DNA of 64,000 nucleotides, taken from Pomphorhynchus laevis. Taxonomy: Eukaryota; Acanthocephala; Palaeacanthocephala; Echinorhynchida; Pomphorhynchidae. The notes under the pieces are model-generated. The model ran no database searches. It was not told where the DNA came from and saw only the letters and a program-made list of their open reading frames with translations. Positions 1 to 39,734 of the stretch are shown piece by piece. A program made the translations under genes and the position numbers. Where the stretch lies: assembly GCA_012934845.2 (NCBI GenBank), contig WNNJ02003240.1, forward strand, positions 186,001 through 250,000, given 5' to 3'. Numbering within the stretch: position 1 is the stretch's first letter; each line of letters starts with the position of its first letter.

Positions 1-2291
1 CCGTAATACAATGTTGTTTGCAAATATACAAGGGCAGTGTCTTTCGAAGAAGATCGTTCTTGATTATAAACCCCGTATTTACGTCACTTTCATTCTTGAA
101 CTTTGTCAAATGCAGCTGGGCGCAAATGGTTCCATTTTTTATAGGATAAAGATCATCTGGACATTGACATAAATTGTGTCTGCAGATGAAATTATTATTA
201 CATTCTATCAGCTCTTCACATGGCTCATTATAACCTCGTCCTGGTACTGTATTTGCAGGAATTTGTTTAAAATCTGTCCATATGTTAGAGTCCGTGTCCT
301 TGTCGTATAAACACGACGCGTTTTCACAATACATATTCATCGGACAGTCGGTAGCCGTAATACAATGTTGTTTGCAAATATACAAGGGCAGTGTCTTTCG
401 AAGAATATCGTTCTTGATTATAAACCCCGTATTTACGTCACTTTCATTTTTGAACTTTATCAAATGCAGCTGAGTGCAAATGCTTCCATTTTTTATAGGA
501 TAAAGATCATCTGGACATTGACATGAATTGTGTTTGCAGATAAAATTATTACTACATTCTATCAGCTCTTCACATGGCTCATTATAACCTCGTCCTGGTA
601 CTGTATTTGCAAGAATTTGTTCAAAATCTGTCCATATGTTAGAGTCCGGGTCCTTGTCATATAAACACGACGCGTTTTCACAATACATATTCATCGGACA
701 GTCGGTAGCAGTAATACAATGTTGTTTGCAAATATATAAGGGCAGTGACTTTCGAAGAAGATCGTTCTTGATTATGAACCCCGTATTTACATCACTTTCA
801 TTCTTGAACTTTGTCAAATGCAGCTGAACGCAAATGGTTCCATTGTTTATAGGATAAAGATCATCTGGACATTGACATGAATTGTGTTTGCAGATGAAAT
901 TATTATTACATTCTATCAGCTCTTCACATGGCTCATTATAACCTCGTCCTGGTACTGTATTTGCAGGAATTTGTTTAAAATCTGTCCATATGTTAGAGTC
1001 CGTGTCCTTGTCGTATAAACACGACGCGTTTTCACAATACATATTCATCGGACAGTCGGTAGCCGTAATACAATGTTGTTTGCAAATATACAAGGGCAGT
1101 GTCTTTCGAAGACGATCGTTTTTGATTATAAACCCCGTATTTACATCACTTTCATTCTTGAACTTTGTCAAATGCAGCTGGGCGCAAATGGTTCCATTTT
1201 TTATAGGATAAAGATCATCTGGACATTGACATAAATTGTTTCTGCAGATGAAATTATTATTACATTCTATCAGCTCTTCACATGGCTCATTATAACCTCG
1301 TCCTGGTACTGTATTTGCAGGAATTTGTTTAAAATCTGTCCATATGTTATAGTCCGGGTCCTTGTCGTATAAACACGACGCGTTTTCACAATACATATTC
1401 ATCGGACAGTCGGTAGCCGTAATACAATGTTGTTTGCAAATATACAAGGGCAGTGTCTTTCGAAGACGATCGTTTTTGATTATAAACCCCGTATTTACAT
1501 CACTTTCATTCTTGAACTTTGTCAAATGCAGCTGGGCGCAAATGGTTCCATTTTTTATAGGATAAAGATCATCTGGACATTGACATAAATTGTTTCTGCA
1601 GATGAAATTATTATTACATTCTATCAGCTCTTCACATGGCTCATTATAACCTCGTCCTGGTACTGTATTTGCAGGTATTTGTTCAAAATCTGTCCATATG
1701 TTATAGTCCGGGTCCTTGTCGTATAAACACGACGCATTTTCACAATACATATTCATCGGACAGTCGGTAGCCGTAATACAATGTTGTTTGCAAATATACA
1801 AGGGCAGTGTCTTTCGAAGAAGATCGTTCTTGATTATAAACCCCGTATTTACGTCACTTTCATTCTTGAACTTTGTCAAATGCAGCTGGGCGCAAATTGT
1901 TCTATTTTTTATAGGATAAAGATCATCTGGACATTGACATAAATTGTGTCTGCAGATTAAATTATTATTACATTCTATCAGCTCTTCACATGGCTCATTA
2001 TAACCTCGTCCTGGTACTGTATTTGCAGGAATTTGTTTAAAATCTGTCCATATGTTAGAGTCCGTGTCCTTGTCGTATAAACACGACGCGTTTTCACAAT
2101 ACATATTCATCGGACAGTCGGTAGCCGTAATACAATGTTGTTTGCAAATATACAAGGGCAGTGTCTTTCGAAGAATATCGTTCTTGATTATAAACCCCGT
2201 ATTTACGTCACTTTCATTCTTGAACTTTATCAAATGCAGCTGGGCGCAAATGGTTCCATTTTTTATAGTATACAGATCATCTGGACATTGA
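1..2291 (-). repeat. 354-bp tandem repeat, ~6.5 copies, coding
   Basis: Successive units start about 354 bp apart (equivalent positions 282, 636, 990, 1344, 1698, 2052). They differ at only a few bases per unit. The period is exactly 118 codons and every difference keeps the minus-strand frame open, so the array is part of the Cys-rich gene. The final unit at its 5' end (about 2230-2330) diverges from the rest. Confidence 0.95.
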
Positions 2292-3148
2292 CATGAATTG
2301 TGTTTGCAAATAAAATTAAAATCACAATCTTCAGAAACTTGACAGTATTCTTTATTGATGTGCATTTTTATTTCCTTTTCTCCGTTTGCAATAAATCTCG
2401 TCCACAAAACCGTGTCAATTTCATTTTTATTTTCACATATTTTTTTGAAACATATCATTTCATTTGGGCAATGATTGTTTTTGTCACATTGTCGTTTGCA
2501 CACTATATCTGGAACGAATTTCCGGTATCTTCGTTGGTATGTTACGTAATTCCTAATATAGTTATTATCAAAAGTTTTGTCTATACTTAAAGGTAGAAAT
2601 TCACAAAATGATCCTTTGTCAATTGGTCGTAGATATTTATGGGCGCATTGACATTTGTTCTCTATACACATTAAATTGCTGCCGCAGTCATTGTACTGTC
2701 CGCATGAATTATTGAAAATTAGATGACTACAAAACCCAGTGTTGTCTATTTTGGTTGGAATTTTAGATTGCGTAATCTCTCGATAGTAGGATGTTGTACT
2801 TGTAGAATATTCTGATACGACCTGCTTATCAAATTCTTTTTTATAGTTATCGTTTATTTTCCAATGATACATTTGTAGCGTGAACGGATTTGGGTATACG
2901 CCTCCTTCTGTCATCATCATTATTCTCATTCGCTTGACATCCGGATCGTTCGGTTTTTGGTTTCTTAAATAATCAAGGTAGTCTTCATCATACAATTTAG
3001 TGTGCTTTTTCACCTTTGAATTTTGTACTATTTCATTATAAGCAGACAAAATGTCATCAGTAAGGATATTATAGATTTTGTTATCCAATCCTCCGTTTAT
3101 TATGACTATTTTCTTTTCTTTCGTATCCTTCGTTAGGGATGCTATTAA
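1..3148 (-). CDS. Cys-rich repeat protein, large exon (partial, runs off left edge)
   Basis: Read on the minus strand, one frame stays open from about 3148 to position 1, roughly 1,049 codons without a stop in an AT-rich region. That can hardly be chance. The exon start is set by stops in all nearby upstream codons and a possible acceptor (tcatag) ending at 3149. The first ~130 residues are charged, with a strand-like KKIVIINGG and an NPFTLQMYHW patch. Cys-rich EB/EGF-like modules follow (for example CKRQCDKNNHCPNEMICF), then 118-residue repeats. Each repeat has 11 Cys in two half-modules: CKQHC...DCPMNMYCENASC, and CEELIECNNNFICRHNLCQC followed by NGTIC. EB-type modules are found in secreted or extracellular parts of invertebrate proteins, so I infer a secreted or surface protein. 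The function is unknown. The 3' end and stop lie outside the window. Confidence 0.8.
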
Positions 3149-3149
3149 C

Positions 3150-4360
3150 TATGATTATTGTAAAAACTGTAATCAAATTACTGCTTTTAATATCTTTGTG
3201 TAATGGTTATGCCAATTTCAGTGCATAATCAATATATTTCGCCATATTTTGCCATTTTGTGAAATATTTCTAATATTATATGATTAATATAATATTAATC
3301 GAATCATTAATATTAAATTAATTTAATGGCTAATATTAATATGATTAATATTATATTAATCGAGTGATATTGATGTCAAATGTCTTGAATTATCTTTATT
3401 AAATGTATTTTTATTAGTATTATATAGTATGCATACATGTTCTTGCAAACATGTGGTTATTGTAAATTTAAATATACCACTTTTATGTAAATATAAAGTT
3501 CATATCAGAATAAATACATTTTTTATCATCGATATTAGCGTTATTAAGAATTATGCTATTTGGATAAATTTGTTCAATTATTGAATAAAAATTGTGCTAA
3601 ATACACATATCTTTATATAATGTAGATTTATGTTTATAGTTCTGTAATATTAAATAGTACATAATATCTTTTTATTATATAAAAAATATTGTCAATGTAT
3701 CGGAAAATATATTTAATATCTTTATATAATGTAGATTTATTTTTAAAGTTCTGTAATATTAAATATTGCATTATATATTTTAGTTTACATTCTAAATAAT
3801 TATTTATTATTACATTATAATAAATTTTATATATTTATAATAAAATAATTATTTTTTATTAAATTATAAATATTTTATATTTTTATTACTTTTATTACAT
3901 TCAATATTTTGACATTGAAAATGCGTATGCTAAACTTGTAAACATTATTTTGTTTTCCTGTGGATTTCAAAACAGTTTAAAAATATTTACGCAAGTGCAT
4001 TTTCTGCGGCAAATCTAATACTGTATATGCATGTAACACCAGCCATTAGCAGTTTTGCAGTTGAATTAAATTTAATCAAATTTAATTCTGACTTAAATTT
4101 AATGTCTTTTCAATAATGTATATATTTTAATGTCGATTTAATTATGTAGATGCAGCCATAGAGAAGAAGTTAATTTTACTCAATAGCTTAATTCGATGTA
4201 TTATTCGAGATGCTCTTTCGATGATAAATTAAATATTTTGATATTACTATTTATCTGGATAAAAACTATTTAAAAATTAGGCTTTGTTAAATGGACTTTA
4301 ATTTAAATCGTTTTTATTTAATAGTTTATCTTTATTTATCTATATTAATAGTTTATATAG
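3150..4360. other. AT-rich non-coding stretch
   Basis: Very AT-rich, with many short palindromic runs such as taatattaatatgattaat near 3290-3360 and a partial repeat (3610-3690 resembles 3715-3775). No ORF or RNA gene can be supported. It is probably intron of the Cys-rich gene. Confidence 0.5.
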
Positions 4361-4367
4361 TTTAGAT

Positions 4368-5480
4368 TTAGTTTATAATGTATCGAAACATGTATTTCAT
4401 ATATTTATATTGTTTAGATTTAGTTTTCACACAGTTATGAACAAATTCATATTCTATAAAGTCAAAAAATAAGTCAGCTATAATTGGGCTACTATTACCA
4501 CCCATTGGAACACCTTTTATTTGTCTAAATATAGATGTCCCCACTTTTAAATAATTTTGATTTATCAAAATATTTAAGGATTTTATAAATTCAATTTAAT
4601 CCATATATTTATATTTAATTGATGGTTTAATTTTTGTTAGATAAGCGTTATATTTATCATAACATATATATGTATATCTTTTTCCGAATATAAGATTAAT
4701 TAATTTTACTAACCCTTGTTTAATATATGATAAATTTAAAATTGTATAAATTTCATAAATTTTTTTGAAACATAAATTTTATATCTTTATATAATTTAGA
4801 TTTATTTTTTAAACAGGTTTTGAACAAATTTTTATTCTATAAAGCTTAAAAATAAGTCAGCTATAAATATATCATCAATGTATCGAATAGATATCGTAAT
4901 AGATAGTAATAAGTAATTGGGCTACTATTACCATAGTAATAGTAGTAATAGTAGTAATTGGGCTAAATAGTAATTAGTAATCGGGCTACTATTACCACCC
5001 ATTGGAACACCTTTTATTTGTCTAAATATAGATGTCCATGCCTTTAAATAATTTTGATTTATTAAAATATTTAAGATTTCTATTAATTCAATTTTATCCA
5101 TATATTTATATTTACTTGATGGTTGAATTTTTGTTAGATATGCGTTATAGTTATTATAACATATATATGTATAACTTTAGTTATATATAAAGATATTATA
5201 TATAAATATCATATAATATTATATATATTTAGTTATCTTTAGTTATCTATAGTTATTCTTTAATTTAGTAAGTTCTGGATACATCTTTATTAATTGATCT
5301 TTCATTTTATAATTGCCTGTTATTTTAATTTTAACTTTATCAAATAAATAATCTTTCCAAATATTTGTTAGATATGCGCTATAATTATTATAACATACAT
5401 ATGTATATCTTTTCCGAATAGAAGATTAATTAATTTTACTAACGCTTCTTTAATATCTACAAAATCTAGATTTGTATAAA
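4368..5480 (-). pseudogene. Penelope-like element RT, decayed, two partial copies
   Basis: The minus-strand frame at 4368-4568 contains RQIKGVPMGGNSSPIIADLF, the RT motif typical of Penelope-like elements, followed by a Y-E-F-V-H block. Upstream sequence up to about 4790 continues the RT in broken frames. A second copy of the same motif occurs at about 4985-5100, after a small (TAG)n-like expansion at 4915-4980, and decayed RT sequence continues to about 5480. No endonuclease domain was recognised. These are dead copies in the presumed intron of the Cys-rich gene. Confidence 0.75.
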
Positions 5481-5778
5481 GCGTACTAAAATCGTAAGTG
5501 TTTATGAAAATTTATTCTTTTTGTGTGTATTATATACAAACAAAAGGAAATTTATTCCTTTTAAATTTTTATATTCTATACAAAAATTGCTAATATATGT
5601 TTCACCAAAATTTCATTGTGTTTTAAATTGTGTTTTCAATGTTTTCAATAAATTTCAAAAGCTCTCATTTTACTGAAATAAGATATTTCAGTTGAAATAA
5701 GAGCCGTTCTCTATGGATTTCGATTTCTTAAATTTCAATATATATAGTTTACCTATATAAACTATATATTAACTACAA

Positions 5779-5870
5779 GAGGAGGACTGTGCTAGTCCCC
5801 CTCCTCTGCATCCAGCAGTTGGGGAGAACTGGCACTGATGAGTCAAAGTTATGACGAAACGGCATTCGTC
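5779..5870 (+). ncRNA. Hammerhead-like core preceded by stable hairpins (incomplete)
   Basis: CTGATGA at 5835-5841 is followed by stem II GTC/GAC (or GTCA/TGAC), then GAAA at 5856-5859. An ACG/CGT stem III with a 5-nt loop and a GTC triplet at 5868-5870 come next. A hairpin (CAGTT/AACTG plus TGC/GCA) ends directly before CTGATGA, and another (gaggagg...cctcctc) lies upstream. I cannot form a proper stem I between the flanks, so this is either degenerate or coincidental. Confidence 0.35.
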
Positions 5871-6182
5871 ATTTTTTCGCGTCGGGCTTATATGATTACT
5901 AAAAATTTACGAGAAATGGTATCAACATTTGAGAAATAGAAGTGAGCATATATTAAGAAACTTTGTTGTGGCATTTGCCAGTGCTTTTGCTAATGATCCA
6001 ATTGGGTGAAATTGTAATGCTAATTCAGCGCTCTAGATGATGTTACTAGAGATTTTCTAGTACATCATCAAAAATTGGCCATATATTATTATATCTATTA
6101 TTATATATATTATTGGCCATATATATAGATCGCTTACGATCGATCTTCATGATCCCGTACGAAACAATCTATATATAATCGT

Positions 6183-6256
<74 letters not shown>
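6183..6256. repeat. (TA)n microsatellite
   Basis: About 37 uninterrupted TA dinucleotides directly precede the inverted unit of the ribozyme array. Confidence 0.97.
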
Positions 6257-6261
<5 letters not shown>

Positions 6262-6458
6262 GTTGTTACACCTGCCCTGGGACACTCAATGGTGTACTCG
6301 TAAATAAATCACTATATTTTCCTCATAAAGAGGCATAAACACCAGGCAACATCCTATATATCCTCATCAGACTAAGAAATATAACCGAATTATTCTCGCA
6401 ATATTCAAAGTCGCTACGTATGCCCAGTCATCCTATGTGTGACGACAAACTTCAACAA

Positions 6459-6498
6459 CGGTATACGCGTTTCGCTCTAACGGAGCTCATCAGTACCG
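6459..6498 (-). ncRNA. Hammerhead ribozyme core (inverted copy)
   Basis: On the minus strand it reads CGGTA-CTGATGA-GCTC(cgtta)GAGC-GAAA-CGCGTA-TACCG, with every core base conserved. It is the inverted counterpart of the three plus-strand copies. Confidence 0.75.
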
Positions 6499-6887
6499 TG
6501 ACTTTAATAATCATCTATAGACACCTTAGCACACGCTTAAACAAAGTTTAAAGCTCGAAATCAGAACTACCCTTAATCTGAATCATCGGAGGGAATTTAG
6601 CATAAGCTCTGTGCATATTTACGAGTACACCATCGAGTGTCTCAGGGCAGGTGTAACAACAAATTATATTACATATATTTGTACACTTGAAAGTGTCCCT
6701 GTAAAACAGCATTTCTATTAAAAAGAAGTTAGTGCCTGATGCATGGTTAAACTGCACTAGTCACTGCCATGCACAGAGCTTATGCTAAATTCCCTTCGAT
6801 GATTCAGATTAAGGGTAGTTCTGTTTTTCGAGCTTTAAACTTTGTTTAAGCGTGTGCTAAGGTGTCTATAGATGATTATTAAAGTCA

Positions 6888-6927
6888 CGGTACTGATGAG
6901 CTCCGTTAGAGCGAAACGCGTATACCG
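6888..6927 (+). ncRNA. Hammerhead ribozyme core, copy 1
   Basis: Stem I is CGGTA (6888-6892) with TACCG (6923-6927). CTGATGA is at 6893-6899. Stem II GCTC/GAGC (6900-6903, 6909-6912) has a 5-nt loop. GAAA is at 6913-6916. The GTA triplet ends at 6922, the predicted cleavage site. Stem III would be ACGCGT, which is self-complementary and has no loop, so it can only pair fully between two molecules or units. Confidence 0.8.
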
Positions 6928-7348
6928 TTGTTGAAGTTTTCGTCACACATAGGATGACAGGGCATGCGTAGCGACTTTGAATAATGCGAGAATAATTCGA
7001 TTATATTTCTTATTCTGATGAGGATATATAGGATGTTGCCTGGTGTTTATGCCTCTTTATGAGGAAAATATAGTGATTTATTTACGAGTACACCATCGAG
7101 TGTCCCAGGGCAGGTTAACAACAAATTACATTACATATATTTGTACACTTGAAAGTGTCCCTGTAAAACAGCATTTCTATTAAATGAATTTAGTGCCTGA
7201 TGCATGGTTAAACTGCAATAGTCACTGCCATACACAGAGCTTATGCTAAATTCCCTCCAATGATTCAGATTAAGGGTAGTTCTGTTTGTCGAGCTTTAAA
7301 CTTTGTTTAAGCGTGTGCTAAGGTGTCTATAGATGATTATTAAAGTCA

Positions 7349-7388
7349 CGGTACTGATGAGCTCCGTTAGAGCGAAACGCGTATACCG
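7349..7388 (+). ncRNA. Hammerhead ribozyme core, copy 2
   Basis: Identical to copy 1 across CGGTA, CTGATGA (7354-7360), stem II GCTC/GAGC, GAAA, CGCGTA and TACCG. It lies 461 bp downstream of copy 1. Confidence 0.8.
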
Positions 7389-7811
7389 TTGTTGAAGTTT
7401 TCGTCACACATAGGATGACAGGGCATACGTAGTGACTTTGAATATTGCGAGAATAATTCGGTTATATTTCTTAGTCTGATGAGTATATATAGGATGCTGC
7501 CTGGTGTTTATGCCTCTTTATGAGGAAACTATAGTGATTAATTTACGAGTACACCATCGAGTGTCTCAGGGCAGGTGTAACAACAAATTACATTACATAT
7601 ATTTGTACACTTGAAAGTGTCCCTGTAAAACAGCATTTCTATTTAAAAGAATTTAGTGCCTGATGCATGGTTGAACTGCAATAGTCACTGCCATGCACAT
7701 AGCTTATGCTAAATTCCCTCCGATGATTCAGATTAAGGGTAGTTCTGTTTTTCGAGCTTTAAACTTTGTTTAAGCGTGTGTTAAGGTGTCTATAGATGAT
7801 TATCAAAGTCC

Positions 7812-7851
7812 CGGTACTGATGAGCTCCCTTAGAGCGAAACGCGTATACCG
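7812..7851 (+). ncRNA. Hammerhead ribozyme core, copy 3
   Basis: Same core. The only change is in the stem II loop (ccctta instead of ccgtta), which leaves the GCTC/GAGC pairing intact. The base before CGGTA is C instead of A, so stem I is 5 bp here, against 6 bp in copies 1 and 2. Confidence 0.78.
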
Positions 7852-8005
7852 TTGTTGAAGTTTTCGTGAAACATAGGATGACTGGGCATACTAACGACTT
7901 TGAATATTGGGAGAATAATTCGGTTATATTTCTTAGTCTGATGAGGATATATAGGATGCTGCCTGGTGCTTATGCCTCTTTATTAGGAAAATATAGTGAT
8001 TTATA

Positions 8006-8420
8006 TGTAATATATGGGCTGCTTACAAACTAGAATTCGATCATCAGCTCCATCAGTCCTGTGTATAACTCTGAGACGCCCCTAACCACCCAGCAGTCAT
8101 CGTCAGTCGGATGATATGGTTAGGGTGCGCTTCGACTGCTTTTGTGATAACTGTAAAGAAACCAGCTATTCCTCACGATGCTAAACGAAACTCAGATGCA
8201 CAAAGCGTTTTTATGATCGAAGTCCAGTTTTTCCTGGACCACAGTTACAAGCGATTTTTCGCACTACCAATTTATAAAAAACGTATTCCTTTCGGAATCC
8301 TGTGAGAAATTCAGTGCCCTCGTAACCAACGGATACGCATTTGTGCATATAAAGAATAACTAGAAGGTCCACACACGCAACAAGCCATTAAAAACGCTTA
8401 TATATAGATTTGTACAAATA
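8006..8420. other. Unassigned stretch downstream of the array
   Basis: Less AT-rich than its surroundings. Contains a 64-codon open frame (8111-8305) with no recognisable features. It may be flanking sequence of the retrozyme or another decayed insertion. Nothing further can be supported. Confidence 0.3.
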
Positions 8421-8591: not shown

Positions 8592-8619
8592 TTATTAATT
8601 TCGATTACCCTACAATATA

Positions 8620-8840
8620 TTTTAGTTTGTGTTAATTGCTTAAAGTATTTTATTCATGTAACCAGAAAGGGTTTTAAATAAAGTATTAAATAATTTTTCA
8701 TATAAACAGAGTGGTTTTAAAATCACTACATATGAGCCTAGGTTTTATTAGATAACTTTGGATTCCAATATAATATAGGTATAGTTTTATAATATCTACT
8801 GTTATACCCTTTTTTATTATTTTATTCATATAAACTGAGA
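8620..8840 (-). pseudogene. Penelope-like element RT N-terminal fragment
   Basis: Minus-strand reading gives a degraded version of the PLE block LHKNPIKPRFICSAFKC that is better preserved at 54165-54422. It is a short relic with several stops. Confidence 0.55.
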
Positions 8841-8889
8841 GGGATTTAAATGTACATTTAATAAAATGTTTTACTCGTGATCTAAAGCA

Positions 8890-10039: not shown

Positions 10040-10408
10040 AAAATAAGTAAAATGTGTTTTAATATTCAAAATAAGTTTAAAATTTTATATAAAACTCTAA
10101 TAAAACCTAGGTTCATATGTAGTTCTTTTAAATGTACAGAAAAATTCCCTTTCTGTTTATACGAATAAAATACTTAAAGTAATTAAAGCACACTTTAAAA
10201 ATATATTTTAAGGTAATCGAAATAAATATTGCTATAAAACACTATTTCAGTATTTATTCTCTAAAAGAATTTTGAAAACTCACAAAAGGAAAATATTTTC
10301 AAAATATAAATACTTACGATTTTAGTTCGCTTTATACAAATTTAGATTTAGCAGATATTGAAGAAGCGTTAGAAAAATTAATTAACCTTATATTCAGATA
10401 TATATTAG
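10040..10408 (+). pseudogene. Penelope-like element RT fragment
   Basis: Plus-strand reading near 10095-10130 gives IKPRFICSSFKCT, the PLE block just before the RT core. Decayed sequence follows to about 10400 (ILTILVRFIQI...), where an inverted-repeat element interrupts it. Sequence resumes in the same orientation after 11100. Confidence 0.6.
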
Positions 10409-10839
10409 TTAAGTCGGGTTGTGCGGAATGAAACAACGTCCAGAGTCCGGTGAAATTCGTGAAGTATTCAATGTAGTTGCCGATTGAAACTGGTTTCGAT
10501 TAACGAAATGCTTTAGAATCGAAGTGATGTAGTACTCCGCAAAACTCATCAGTAGAATGAAGTACACACCAATCGTTTCTTATATGACATATAAGAAAGC
10601 ATTTCCGACACGTTGCTTAAACGCCTGAGGCTTTCGCTCTTGAACCAGAACATTTTCTGTACGGACCATCCTCATCTAATAAGCAAAGGTTTTTGCTGAA
10701 TGTTCGCTTTGTCTAGAAGTGACATGGATCCTGCAGTTTGATGGGTGAAGCCAGTTTCAATCAGCAACTGCATTGAATACTTTACGAATTCCATTCGGAA
10801 TCCTGCCATTGTTTCATTACGCACAGCCGGACTTAACTT
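10409..10839. mobile_element. Inverted-repeat (foldback/MITE-like) element
   Basis: The left ~90 bp (gttaagtcgggttgtgcgga and on) and the reverse complement of the right ~90 bp (gttaagtccggctgtgcgta and on) agree at about 85% of positions, including the block attcaatg.agttg..gattgaaactgg. The interior (~250 bp) has no ORF. It sits between two parts of a PLE-derived region, so it probably inserted there. Confidence 0.75.
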
Positions 10840-11099
10840 CTATATGCTGAATTCGGTTTTGAATCCAACGAATTGCTCCCCATCAATTCTACTCCTTCTC
10901 ATCCATTAAGTCCGGGTATGTCTTGAGAATCCGTTATATTTGTTTAACTATATTATTGCTTTAGCTCATACAAGTGTTAAAGAACAGTTCTTCGATTATA
11001 TATTATACAATAACGTCAAAAACGACTTTGTATGTTTGTTATCGTATCATAATTTGATTTATTAAAAACGGAAAGTTACCTACTGATATGCTCGGAATT

Positions 11100-11490
11100 G
11101 CGCAAATCTAGATTTAGCTGCATATTAAGAAAGTGTTATAAAAGTTAATTAACCTTATATTCAAATATATAACGCCTATCTACTAAACATATAACCTTTC
11201 AAATAAATATATGGATAAAATTGAATTAATTAATTATCCTTAAATATATAATATTTAATATTAGAATCCTTAAATATTTTGATAAATCAAAATTATTTAA
11301 AGATAGATACATCTATATTTAGACAAATAAAAGGTGTTCCAAAAAGAGGTAATAGTAGCCCAATTATAGCTGACTTGTTTTTATGCTATATAGAATATGA
11401 ATTTGTTCATAACTGTGTAAAAGCTAAATCTAAACAATGTAAATATGTGAAATATATGTTTCGATACATTGATGATATATGTATTTAATT
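11100..11490 (+). pseudogene. Penelope-like element RT fragment
   Basis: The frame at 11279-11488 reads RQIKGVPKRGNSSPIIADLF, ending in the catalytic-region motif FRYIDDI. It is a degraded PLE RT: the MGG of the motif has become KRG. Confidence 0.75.
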
Positions 11491-11639
11491 CTAATAATTT
11501 TTATTTCAGTGATATCTCTTTGAAAGATAAAACTCTTATCAAAATATAATAAAACCCTTATCAAAATATAAATACATACGATTTTAGTACGCTTAATAAG
11601 TTATAGTACGTTATAGTAATTATAACGTACTATAACGTT

Positions 11640-12345
11640 ATAATTTTAGTACGTTATAATAATTATAACGCCTATCTAACAAAAATTAAACCATCAAGTA
11701 AATATAAATATATGGATAAAATTGAATTAATAGAATCCTTAAATATTTTGATAAATCAAAATTATTTAAAAGTAGGGACATCTATATTTAGACAAGTAAA
11801 AGGTGTTCCAATGGGTGGTAATAGTAGCCCAATTATAGCTGACTTGTTTTTAAGCTTTATATAATATGAATTTGTTCATGACTGTGTAAAAACTAAATCT
11901 AAACAATATAAATATATGAAATATATGTTTCGATTCATTGATGATATATGTGTATTTAACTCTATCAATGTTTATTCAATAAACGAACAAATTTATACAG
12001 GTAGCCTCATTCTGAATAATAACAATATTAATGATAATTATATATTAGGTATAAACATTAATTAAAACTATAATTAATTTATATTGGAAAGATTACATTT
12101 TTAAATTTACAAGAAACATTTTTGCATGAGTATTCATGCATACCATAAAATATAAAATATAATACATTAAATAATGAAATTTTACGAAATGCCATAATAT
12201 GTAATGATATTGACTTTCTTCAAAATCATTTAAATAACTTAAATGAATGATAAATAAACAAAAATCAAAAATTACAGAAAATCACGAAATATCAGCTCTT
12301 GCTCATGATACGTATTTTCCTATGACAGATAAGCTATCTTCTTCG
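11640..12345 (+). pseudogene. Penelope-like element RT, best-preserved copy here
   Basis: The plus-strand frame shows YKYMDKIELIESLNILINQN, then RQVKGVPMGGNSSPIIADLF, then FRFIDDICVF (the catalytic Asp pair). A C-terminal part follows with a block ISALAHDTYFPM near 12290. At least one stop (in LSFI*YEF at about 11862) and frame breaks make it non-functional. Sequence before 11700 repeats a palindromic acgttataat motif. Confidence 0.8.
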
Positions 12346-38900: not shown

Positions 38901-38902
38901 TT

Positions 38903-39730
38903 CCTGATCAATCCAGTTCCAGATCAATCCAGTTCCAGATCAATCCAGTTCCAGATCAATCCAGTTCCAGATCAATCCAGTTCCAGATCAATCCAGTTCC
39001 AGATCAATCCAGTTCCAGATCAATCCAGTTCCAGATCAATCCAGTTCCAGATCAATCCAGTTCCAGATCAATCCAGTTCCAGATCAATCCAGTTCCAGAT
39101 CAATCCAGTTCCAGATCAATCCAGTTCCAGATCAATCCAGTTCCAGATCAATCCAGTTCCAGATCAATCCAATTCCAGATCAATCCAGTTCCAGATCAAT
39201 CCAGTTCCAGATCAATCCAGTTCCAGATCAATCCAGTTCCAGATCAATCCAGTTCCAGATCAATCCAGTTCCAGATCAATCCAGTTCCAGATCAATCCAG
39301 TTCCAGATCAATCCAGTTCCAGATCAATCCAGTTCCAGATCAATCCAGTTCCAGATCAATCCAGTTCCAGATCAATCCAGTTCCAGATCAATCCAGTTCC
39401 AGATCAATCCAGTTCCAGATCAATCCAGTTCCAGATCAATCCAGTTACAGATCAATCCAGTTACAGATCAATCCAGTTACAGATCAATCCAGTTCCAGAT
39501 CAATCCAGTTCCAGATCAATCCAGTTCCAGATCAATCCAGTTCCAGATCAATCCAGTTCCAGATCAATCCAGTTCCAGATCAATCCAGTTCCAGATCAAT
39601 CCAGTTCCAGATCAATCCAGTTCCAGATCAATCCAGTTCCAGATCAATCCAGTTTCAGATCAATCCAGTTCCAGATCAATCCAGTTCCAGAACAATCCAG
39701 TTCCAGATCAATCCAGTTCCAGATCAATTC
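38903..39730. repeat. 16-bp minisatellite, about 51 units
   Basis: Unit cagttccagatcaatc repeated with almost no variation. Exceptions are three consecutive units with cagttac, one ccaattcc, one cagtttc and one agaacaatc. The period is not a multiple of three, so it is not coding in one frame. It ends directly before the 5' end of a CT-rich LINE. Confidence 0.98.
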
Positions 39731-39734
39731 AGCA

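Follow-up and report, generated by a model that had tools for sequence, protein, structure and literature searches.

A 64,000-nucleotide stretch of the Pomphorhynchus laevis genome (contig WNNJ02003240.1, positions 186,001 to 250,000 of the forward strand; hereafter the window) carries an array of roughly 461-bp units that each contain a hammerhead ribozyme, and copies of this unit are dispersed genome-wide, from monomers to large multimers. Taken as a whole, our observations are best explained by a non-autonomous retrozyme of the non-LTR class (LTR, long terminal repeat), the transcripts of which would be cut by a double hammerhead and which would be moved in trans by the machinery of canonical Penelope-like elements (PLEs), a reading to which we assign a probability of about 0.7. 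An earlier note made from the letters of the window, here called the original prediction, had proposed an undescribed retrozyme family. The retrozyme reading stands as the best one, but "undescribed" holds only for a further member of the group, because tandem repeats that carry type I hammerheads have already been published as a class of animal retrozymes (PMC7229834, in part; sources so marked are cited for a portion of their text). The family is new and the class is not, and the added result is an insertion anatomy that supports a specific mobiliser.

Hammerhead units in the window meet head to head

The direct array occupies 6616-8004 on the forward strand and comprises 3.0 copies with 95% matches, in units of 461-463 bp. 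As originally predicted, three direct copies share one core architecture, with CTGATGA starting at +6893, +7354 and +7817 and spacings of 461 and 463 bp. Their ribozymes lie on the forward strand at 6888-6927, 7349-7388 and 7812-7851, with predicted cleavage after 6922, 7383 and 7846, respectively, and the copies indeed differ by one flanking base and one loop II base, both of which are carried by the third copy. Joining 7383 to 6923 is the correct junction for the predicted monomer RNA between two cleavage sites, a 461-nt candidate circle that we define here by coordinates only (6923-7383, +). The array is larger than first described, however, since a fourth copy had been missed: it lies inverted at 6243-6616 (-), with its ribozyme at -6493 (6459-6498), and abuts the direct array head to head at 6616. 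The direct array begins at unit position 157 and ends at the short 3′ site described below (~159-162), and the outward 3′ end of the inverted copy lies at the long 3′ site (unit position ~209-218) and continues into (TA)n, here an (AT)36.5 tract at 6185-6257 to which no strand applies. Both flanks of this insertion are themselves repeats, so no comparable empty site is available. The unit is noncoding, with a longest stop-to-stop stretch of 54 codons in the dimer, and has a GC content of 38% in a window of 34% GC.

A complete hammerhead core is present in all four window copies (4/4), and the order and bases of its parts match those of a type I hammerhead that is cleaved behind GTA and has five pairs in stem I (CGGTA/TACCG), four pairs in stem II (GCTC/GAGC) and GAAA. 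In the covariance check that had been proposed, Rfam model RF00008 detected all four cores, but at 23.7-24 bits, below its gathering score of 48.5, and a search of the window with Rfam at gathering scores returned 0 matches. Stem III consists of the palindrome ACGCGT (6916-6921 in the first unit), within which one pair is possible per monomer because the two-base loop is too tight. The ribozyme therefore probably cuts as a dimer through this palindromic stem III. In the double hammerhead the palindrome forms six pairs, and the evaluated energy is -24.1 kcal/mol, whereas two monomers that lack stem III come to -15.6 kcal/mol. The features by which dimeric hammerheads are recognised, a palindromic and very short stem III within a tandem arrangement, here of 461 bp, are both present. 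A 296-bp hammerhead family described below carries a different palindrome, ACACGTGT, at the equivalent place of stem III (L030).

We also examined the base that precedes the cut, using a genome search in which stem III and the cleavage base were left free and 24 bases were fixed. Among 100 listed of 593 matches, 82 had A at this base, 17 had C, 1 had T and 0 had G, which fits the H rule, with the limit that the 17 GTC copies may descend from one ancestor. The original prediction had read constraint from the uniformity of the ribozyme. We tried this idea within the family and found it weak: at loci that were not chosen by their ribozyme, mismatch to the family majority is 2.6% (18/680) at ribozyme positions and 4.7% (337/7133) elsewhere. 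The palindrome stretch CGCGT carries 16 changes in 500 bases in the same 100 listed matches, and six bases taken from elsewhere in the unit as a control carry 39 changes in 600 (100 listed of 273 matches; 24 fixed bases in the pattern). These copies are not independent, since 18 of the first 100 come from the array on C487 and C616 drives part of the control, and for this reason we do not claim selection.

A family of dispersed copies among several hammerhead families

The census of copies that had been suggested was carried out on the 249 Mb assembly. A 35-nt ribozyme core gave 1414 matches at no more than 3 mismatches, whereas the reversed pattern gave 0, which indicates that the cores are not due to chance. 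Long retrozyme arrays are present on C487, C616 and C1546. A more generic core pattern, CTGANGAGN{8,14}CGAAAC, matched 4027 times, compared with 66 for the control, and further hammerhead families with periods of ~296, 306, 323, 350 and 368 bp were found among the first 100 matches listed and the loci fetched for them. The 461-bp and 296-bp families are alike over only ~93 nt around the ribozyme (70%), and no other pair of unlike families matched at E 0.01 save the close kin L067/L069, L068/L072 and L071/window. By eye, the cores of the 306-bp and 323-bp families have a stem I without standard pairing.

Inspection by eye also revealed two traits of the 350-bp family. Its member L068 (G000:C13) has a canonical-looking hammerhead with stem I CTGCAA/TTGCAG, stem III ACGG-TACG-CCGT and GTC, and its unit variants on C13 recur in a set order along the contig, resembling a higher-order repeat.

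Retrozyme insertions have two preferred 3′ ends, random 5′ ends and frequent (TA)n at the 3′ flank

To describe insertions, every copy was placed on a unit numbered from the cleavage site. The survey covered 62 chains of 200 nt or more from 45 loci, and the fetched sequence contains 59 of their 3′ ends and 59 of their 5′ ends. Dropped from the end counts were chains shorter than 200 nt, loci at the same place as another (L001, L003, L004, L013, L020, L023, L033 and L036-L038) and loci fetched for PLEs or other families (L039-L050). L014 and L015 overlap, such that one 3′ end at position 306 was counted twice.

The 3′ ends cluster at two preferred sites ~50 nt apart: 24 lie at a short site (150-163), 20 at a long site (203-224) and 15 elsewhere (n=59), and the two intervals make up 7.8% of the unit. 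These sites were first noted on early loci (159-162 and 209-218), and limits of 156-163 and 204-223 were fixed after all loci were in. Under these limits, 27/39 ends in the first 29 loci fall at the sites, as do 14/20 ends in the 16 later loci (p 2.5e-13). The 5′ ends are uniform along the unit (Kolmogorov-Smirnov p 0.83, n=59). A strict definition of a (TA)n flank was satisfied at 21/59 3′ ends versus 3/59 5′ ends (p 3.6e-7 on shares). Genome-wide, the short end joined to (TA)n was found 101 times, with 0 for the control, and the long end joined to (TA)n was found 132 times at no more than 1 mismatch, with 3 for the control. Ends that run into (TA)n also occur in the 296-bp family (L030 and L051, with 1/2 ends in L030) and in the 350-bp family (L136).

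Neighbouring chains are arranged head to head in 12 pairs and tail to tail in 1, and 12/45 loci contain a head-to-head pair. The outer ends of these 12 pairs comprise one short and one long end in 6, including the pair in the window, two short ends in 3 and other combinations in 3. Short fold-back palindromes were noted by eye at the 5′ junctions of retrozymes in L051, L052 and L016, and we liken them to the palindromes described at inverted junctions of PLEs (PMC3846280, in part).

A canonical PLE has an end architecture like that of the retrozyme

PLEs occur in the genome that hosts the retrozyme, and two of their lineages are relevant here, one permuted and one canonical. The original prediction had pointed to PLE remnants within 2 kb on both sides of the array as a candidate source of reverse transcriptase (RT). 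Remnants do flank the array on both sides, but the right side holds just a noncoding piece within 2 kb, and its nearest RT-coding piece starts at 10085. These remnants match the permuted PLE in L045, which has a 908-codon open frame with a GIY-YIG-like stretch placed first (by eye). The permuted protein has no Pfam match at E 0.01, and among 14 of its relatives some carry PF01541, PF26215 or PF00078. We take PF01541 to be the GIY-YIG domain and the permuted lineage to be that named Naiad. The 3′ ends of the permuted PLE (L045-L047) read GCTGATT(TAATT), in which TGATTTA is common with the short retrozyme end. Nevertheless, 0/10 readable ends (7 of 20 fetched, plus L045-L047) run into (TA)n, and we rejected this lineage as a likely partner on that basis. 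The remnants beside the array, being of another lineage, are thus a poor candidate and probably not the source of RT, whereas a canonical PLE elsewhere in the genome fits this role much better.

A search with the canonical PLE yielded 118 matches, for which 117 of 5877 candidates were scored, and the open frames that pass through a match without a stop reach 933 codons. In this lineage, the stretch that matches the front of the permuted PLE forms the end of the frame (31-33% identity). The canonical PLE adjoins retrozymes in L026, L016 and L065. We examined 16 ends of its family 1 (15 fetched, plus L026) and found a (TA)n tract of at least 8 bp at 14/16 3′ ends, the ends without a tract being L141 and L145. 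When the ends tied to retrozymes by their selection or origin (L149, L150 and L026) are excluded, 11/13 ends have a tract. The 16 PLE 3′ ends also fall mainly at two sites, with 11 at a long site of the PLE, 3 at a short one and 2 elsewhere, and L141 reads on past the latter site. In L026, L149 and L150 a single (TA)n tract lies between a PLE end and the retrozyme end opposite it, and the same holds for another PLE family in L158. Facing pairs were found by eye among 100 of the 101 short and 100 of the 132 long junctions, those listed, and matching coordinates were the reason for retrieving L149, L150 and L158. Three pairs with facing PLE frames within 600 nt were thereby found, versus 0.03 expected from 118 matches and ~200 listed junctions, an expectation that assumes random placement and is too simple a null, given that AT-rich repeats are favoured by both; L026 adds another pair. 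The like two-ended (TA)n architecture of the retrozyme and a canonical PLE, together with the PLE tracts that face retrozyme ends, supports mobilisation of the retrozyme by PLE machinery.

Two further observations concern the canonical PLEs themselves. A hairpin of the form CTGAAGAAGG-loop-CGAAAGC is present in their 3′ regions in 19/20 PLE-end stretches (L026, L141-L145 and L147-L159, not L146), and the pattern was not found in L016, L065 or L045-L047. It resembles a hammerhead core plus an extra A. On G000:C723, PLE frames occur in tandem (247, 3040, 5833, 8626) with a period of 2793 bp, and three of them are open over 864 codons.

Insertions extend across the cleavage site

Crossing of the cleavage site by 56/57 chains was not used as evidence, because most loci had been picked by their ribozyme and the figure reflects that selection. 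We instead assembled 40 loci picked by their 3′ junction alone, taking 20 of 101 short and 20 of 132 long junctions from the heads of the lists. A retrozyme matched in 39/40 (none in L086), and L087 and L088 appear to be duplicates of a single locus. Among these insertions, 33/39 extend past the cleavage site and the other 6 end short of it; 6 reach the edge of the fetched stretch, and 0/33 visible 5′ ends lie within 10 nt of the cut. The frequent crossing and the lack of 5′ ends near the cut argue that cut linear monomers are not the usual template, which would thus be circles or uncut multimers.

Polymorphisms common to several loci bear on the same question. At these sites, units differ by 0.031 per site between loci and by 0.016 within arrays. 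The window copies, the inverted one included, are 0 or 1 common polymorphism apart in each of 12 pairs, and other loci differ from them by 0.027 per site, as expected if all four window copies derive from one template unit. The arrays in L006, L014 and L015 likewise look like copies of one unit.

Proposed mechanism and alternative explanations

We propose that the retrozyme is transcribed into RNAs of at least two units, in which pairs of weak hammerheads would join through the palindromic stem III to form a double hammerhead and cut the transcript into ~461-nt monomers, and that a host ligase may close these monomers into circles. The RT and endonuclease of a canonical PLE, acting in trans, would cut (TA)n tracts and would begin to copy the RNA internally, at one of two sites ~50 nt apart. 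Copying would then pass through the ribozyme cleavage site, possibly for several rounds in a rolling-circle manner, to yield tandem units with fixed 3′ and random 5′ ends, and synthesis primed from both strands of the target would produce a head-to-head pair such as that in the window. By its sequence, such an element would integrate like a PLE without coding for anything, with an optional tail and head-to-head copies.

Several observations weigh against this proposal. Because 5′ flanks are rarely (TA)n (3/59), the tract may be generated at 3′ ends and not be the target; just 21/59 3′ flanks pass the strict (TA)n cut, and 15/59 3′ ends lie outside both sites. No target-site duplication (TSD) of at least 6 bp was found in 30 single insertions, and (TA)n does not follow the ends observed in the 306-bp family. 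For two cores, the free minimum free energy (MFE) structure (-26.3 kcal/mol) is other than the double hammerhead; for one core, it (-8.6) differs from the hammerhead with a one-pair stem III (-2.3). The circular MFE structure of the monomer has 64% of bases paired, and the monomer is no stabler than shuffled sequence, whether circular (z +0.8) or linear (z +0.45). With respect to the proposed partner, the unit has no convincing similarity to the 3′ regions of PLEs (best E 0.065), a standard hammerhead core was not found in the fetched PLE pieces, which are mostly 3′ regions, and the shared preference for AT-rich repeats tempers the count of facing pairs. Ribozyme mutants of PAc, a PLE of Anolis, still insert (PMC11167929). 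Finally, arrays in L007, L035, L056, L058 and L063 keep polymorphisms common to other loci, which a single circle cannot explain.

These last two points suit the reading that uncleaved multimeric transcripts are copied and the ribozyme cut and circle have no role in mobility, as reported for PAc in vitro, and we regard this as a serious contender with somewhat less than even odds. Multimers would explain the 33/39 junction-picked insertions that cross the cleavage site equally well as circles. Against this stand the window array, L006, L014 and L015, which look like one-unit copies, and the base before the cut, which stays A, C or T in the 100 listed matches. A different enzyme is the issue if the retrozyme, as a SINE-like element, is moved by a long interspersed nuclear element (LINE) and its (TA)n is a 3′ tail made by slippage and not a PLE target. 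The scarcity of (TA)n at 5′ flanks would suit this, as would the RT-like frames that are common in the window and look LINE-like by eye. We nonetheless consider it doubtful, since two alternative 3′ ends and head-to-head pairs are features of PLEs (PMC11167929; PMC3846280, in part) and a canonical PLE of this genome has a like two-ended (TA)n architecture, in a comparison confined to the 3′ ends of PLEs.

Two further explanations are already disfavoured. If the units were ordinary satellite DNA, spread by unequal exchange within arrays and with the hammerhead as a relic, then long arrays such as those on C487, C616 and C1546 would be expected, and the repeating order of variants in the 350-bp family on C13 is what DNA-level duplication gives; distances within chains (median 0.067, 35 pairs) are also just slightly below those between loci (0.087, 2047 pairs). 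However, more than 200 dispersed (TA)n junctions, together with two preferred 3′ ends, 5′ ends at random positions and pairs arranged head to head, point to insertion and not to exchange, which makes a satellite origin improbable, and exchange and insertion can coexist in long arrays. The units could instead be solo pseudo-LTRs of an autonomous PLE that carries a hammerhead, in keeping with their PLE-like ends and dimer-type ribozyme. PLE protein matches are present in some retrozyme loci, but none was seen framed by units, and the unit has no similarity to the fetched PLE sequences; we consider this origin very improbable.

Returning to mobilisation by a canonical PLE, a broader version is that animal retrozymes and canonical PLEs share one integration system, in which the PLE enzyme copies RNA circles from two fixed internal sites, often on both strands of a cut (TA)n. 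We put this forward tentatively and would not yet bet on it. If true, a single shared reaction would yield tandem units, the optional tail and head-to-head pairs, which would answer what moves animal retrozymes, and the several hammerhead families of a genome would compete for one PLE and one set of microsatellites. In a genome where retrozyme and canonical PLE have like paired 3′ ends at (TA)n, the partnership becomes testable in vitro with defined RNA, target and protein, and shared polymorphisms within arrays provide a genomic test of circles versus linear multimers as template.

Comparison with known elements

Metazoan non-LTR retrozymes, as described in PMC7229834 (in part), are noncoding, occur as many dispersed monomers to multimers, have low GC content (<45-50%) and form several families per genome, and the P. 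laevis element resembles them in each respect. Their published units are 150-450 bp (RNA of ~170-400 nt), and the 461-463 bp found here is just above this range; their TSDs are optional and longer than 4 bp. The class is further characterised by self-cleavage, expression as linear and circular RNA, highly self-paired circles, tertiary contacts between loops 1 and 2 in canonical forms, the lack of LTRs, of a primer binding site and of a polypurine tract, and coexisting PLEs that carry minimal hammerheads. Invertebrate hammerheads in that account mostly have a stable helix III, whereas none is stable here. A likeness in this respect, judged by description, is to the newt and axolotl repeats HHR_Amex1 (PMC7229834, in part), which have a one-pair stem III and a palindromic tetraloop; dimer action was shown for those repeats and is predicted here, and their units are 330-350 bp versus 461 bp. 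Dimeric action is likewise attributed to the hammerheads of PLEs (PMC6466107 and PMC7761336, both in part).

Earlier work regards PLEs as a strong, though unproven, candidate to supply the enzymes that move animal retrozymes (PMC7229834 and PMC7761336, both in part). In vitro, the PAc protein begins to copy RNA at two internal sites, which define the optional "tail"; it favours AT-rich DNA, where it extends both strands (PMC11167929). PLEs of Adineta have an optional 31-bp tail and inverted repeats that are mostly head to head (PMC3846280, in part). The retrozyme is thus like PLEs in its two 3′ ends, head-to-head copies, AT-rich targets and association with minimal hammerheads (PMC11167929; PMC3846280, in part). 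It differs in that PLEs have an open reading frame with RT and GIY-YIG, neither of which the unit encodes, so it is not itself a PLE, and in that TSDs of 8-10 bp are possible in Adineta PLEs (PMC3846280, in part) and none was found for the retrozyme. In our literature search, which most subscription papers were beyond, we found no analysis of the 3′ ends, tails or (TA)n sites of retrozymes.

Other elements are more distant. Plant LTR retrozymes share a hammerhead-flanked noncoding repeat and a circle-based model of spread, but theirs are type III hammerheads, accompanied by LTRs, a primer binding site, a polypurine tract and 4-bp TSDs (per PMC7229834 and PMC7761336, both in part). The W-elements and SMalpha of Schistosoma are satellite-like repeats of another host, some with hammerheads, and are likened here by description (PMC8490949, in part).

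Other features of the window

To the left of the array, a partial single unit of the 306-bp hammerhead family lies at 5790-6068 (+), with its core at 5835 and 85% identity to the L069 unit. The broken PLE remnants of the permuted lineage, which are neighbours and probably outside the mechanism, comprise RT pieces at 3383-5528 (-) and 10085-12242 (+), and the noncoding piece that resembles the permuted PLE lies at 8593-8861 (-).

Directly to the right of the array, 8012-8399 is a piece of a tandem family whose period is ~390 bp and whose halves are inverted. Rfam listed nothing for it at E 10, and the scoring of 39 out of 869 candidates gave 299 matches to the family (C2685, C1755 and C1969). 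At the left edge of the window, 1-3148 (-) consists of tandem 354-bp repeats (6.5 copies, 96%) across which a reading frame stays open and specifies a series of cysteine-rich modules; PF01683, presumably the EB domain, and PF25427 are present in the full protein. Further along the window, a 16-bp repeat present 52 times at 38901-39732 leaves three frames open.
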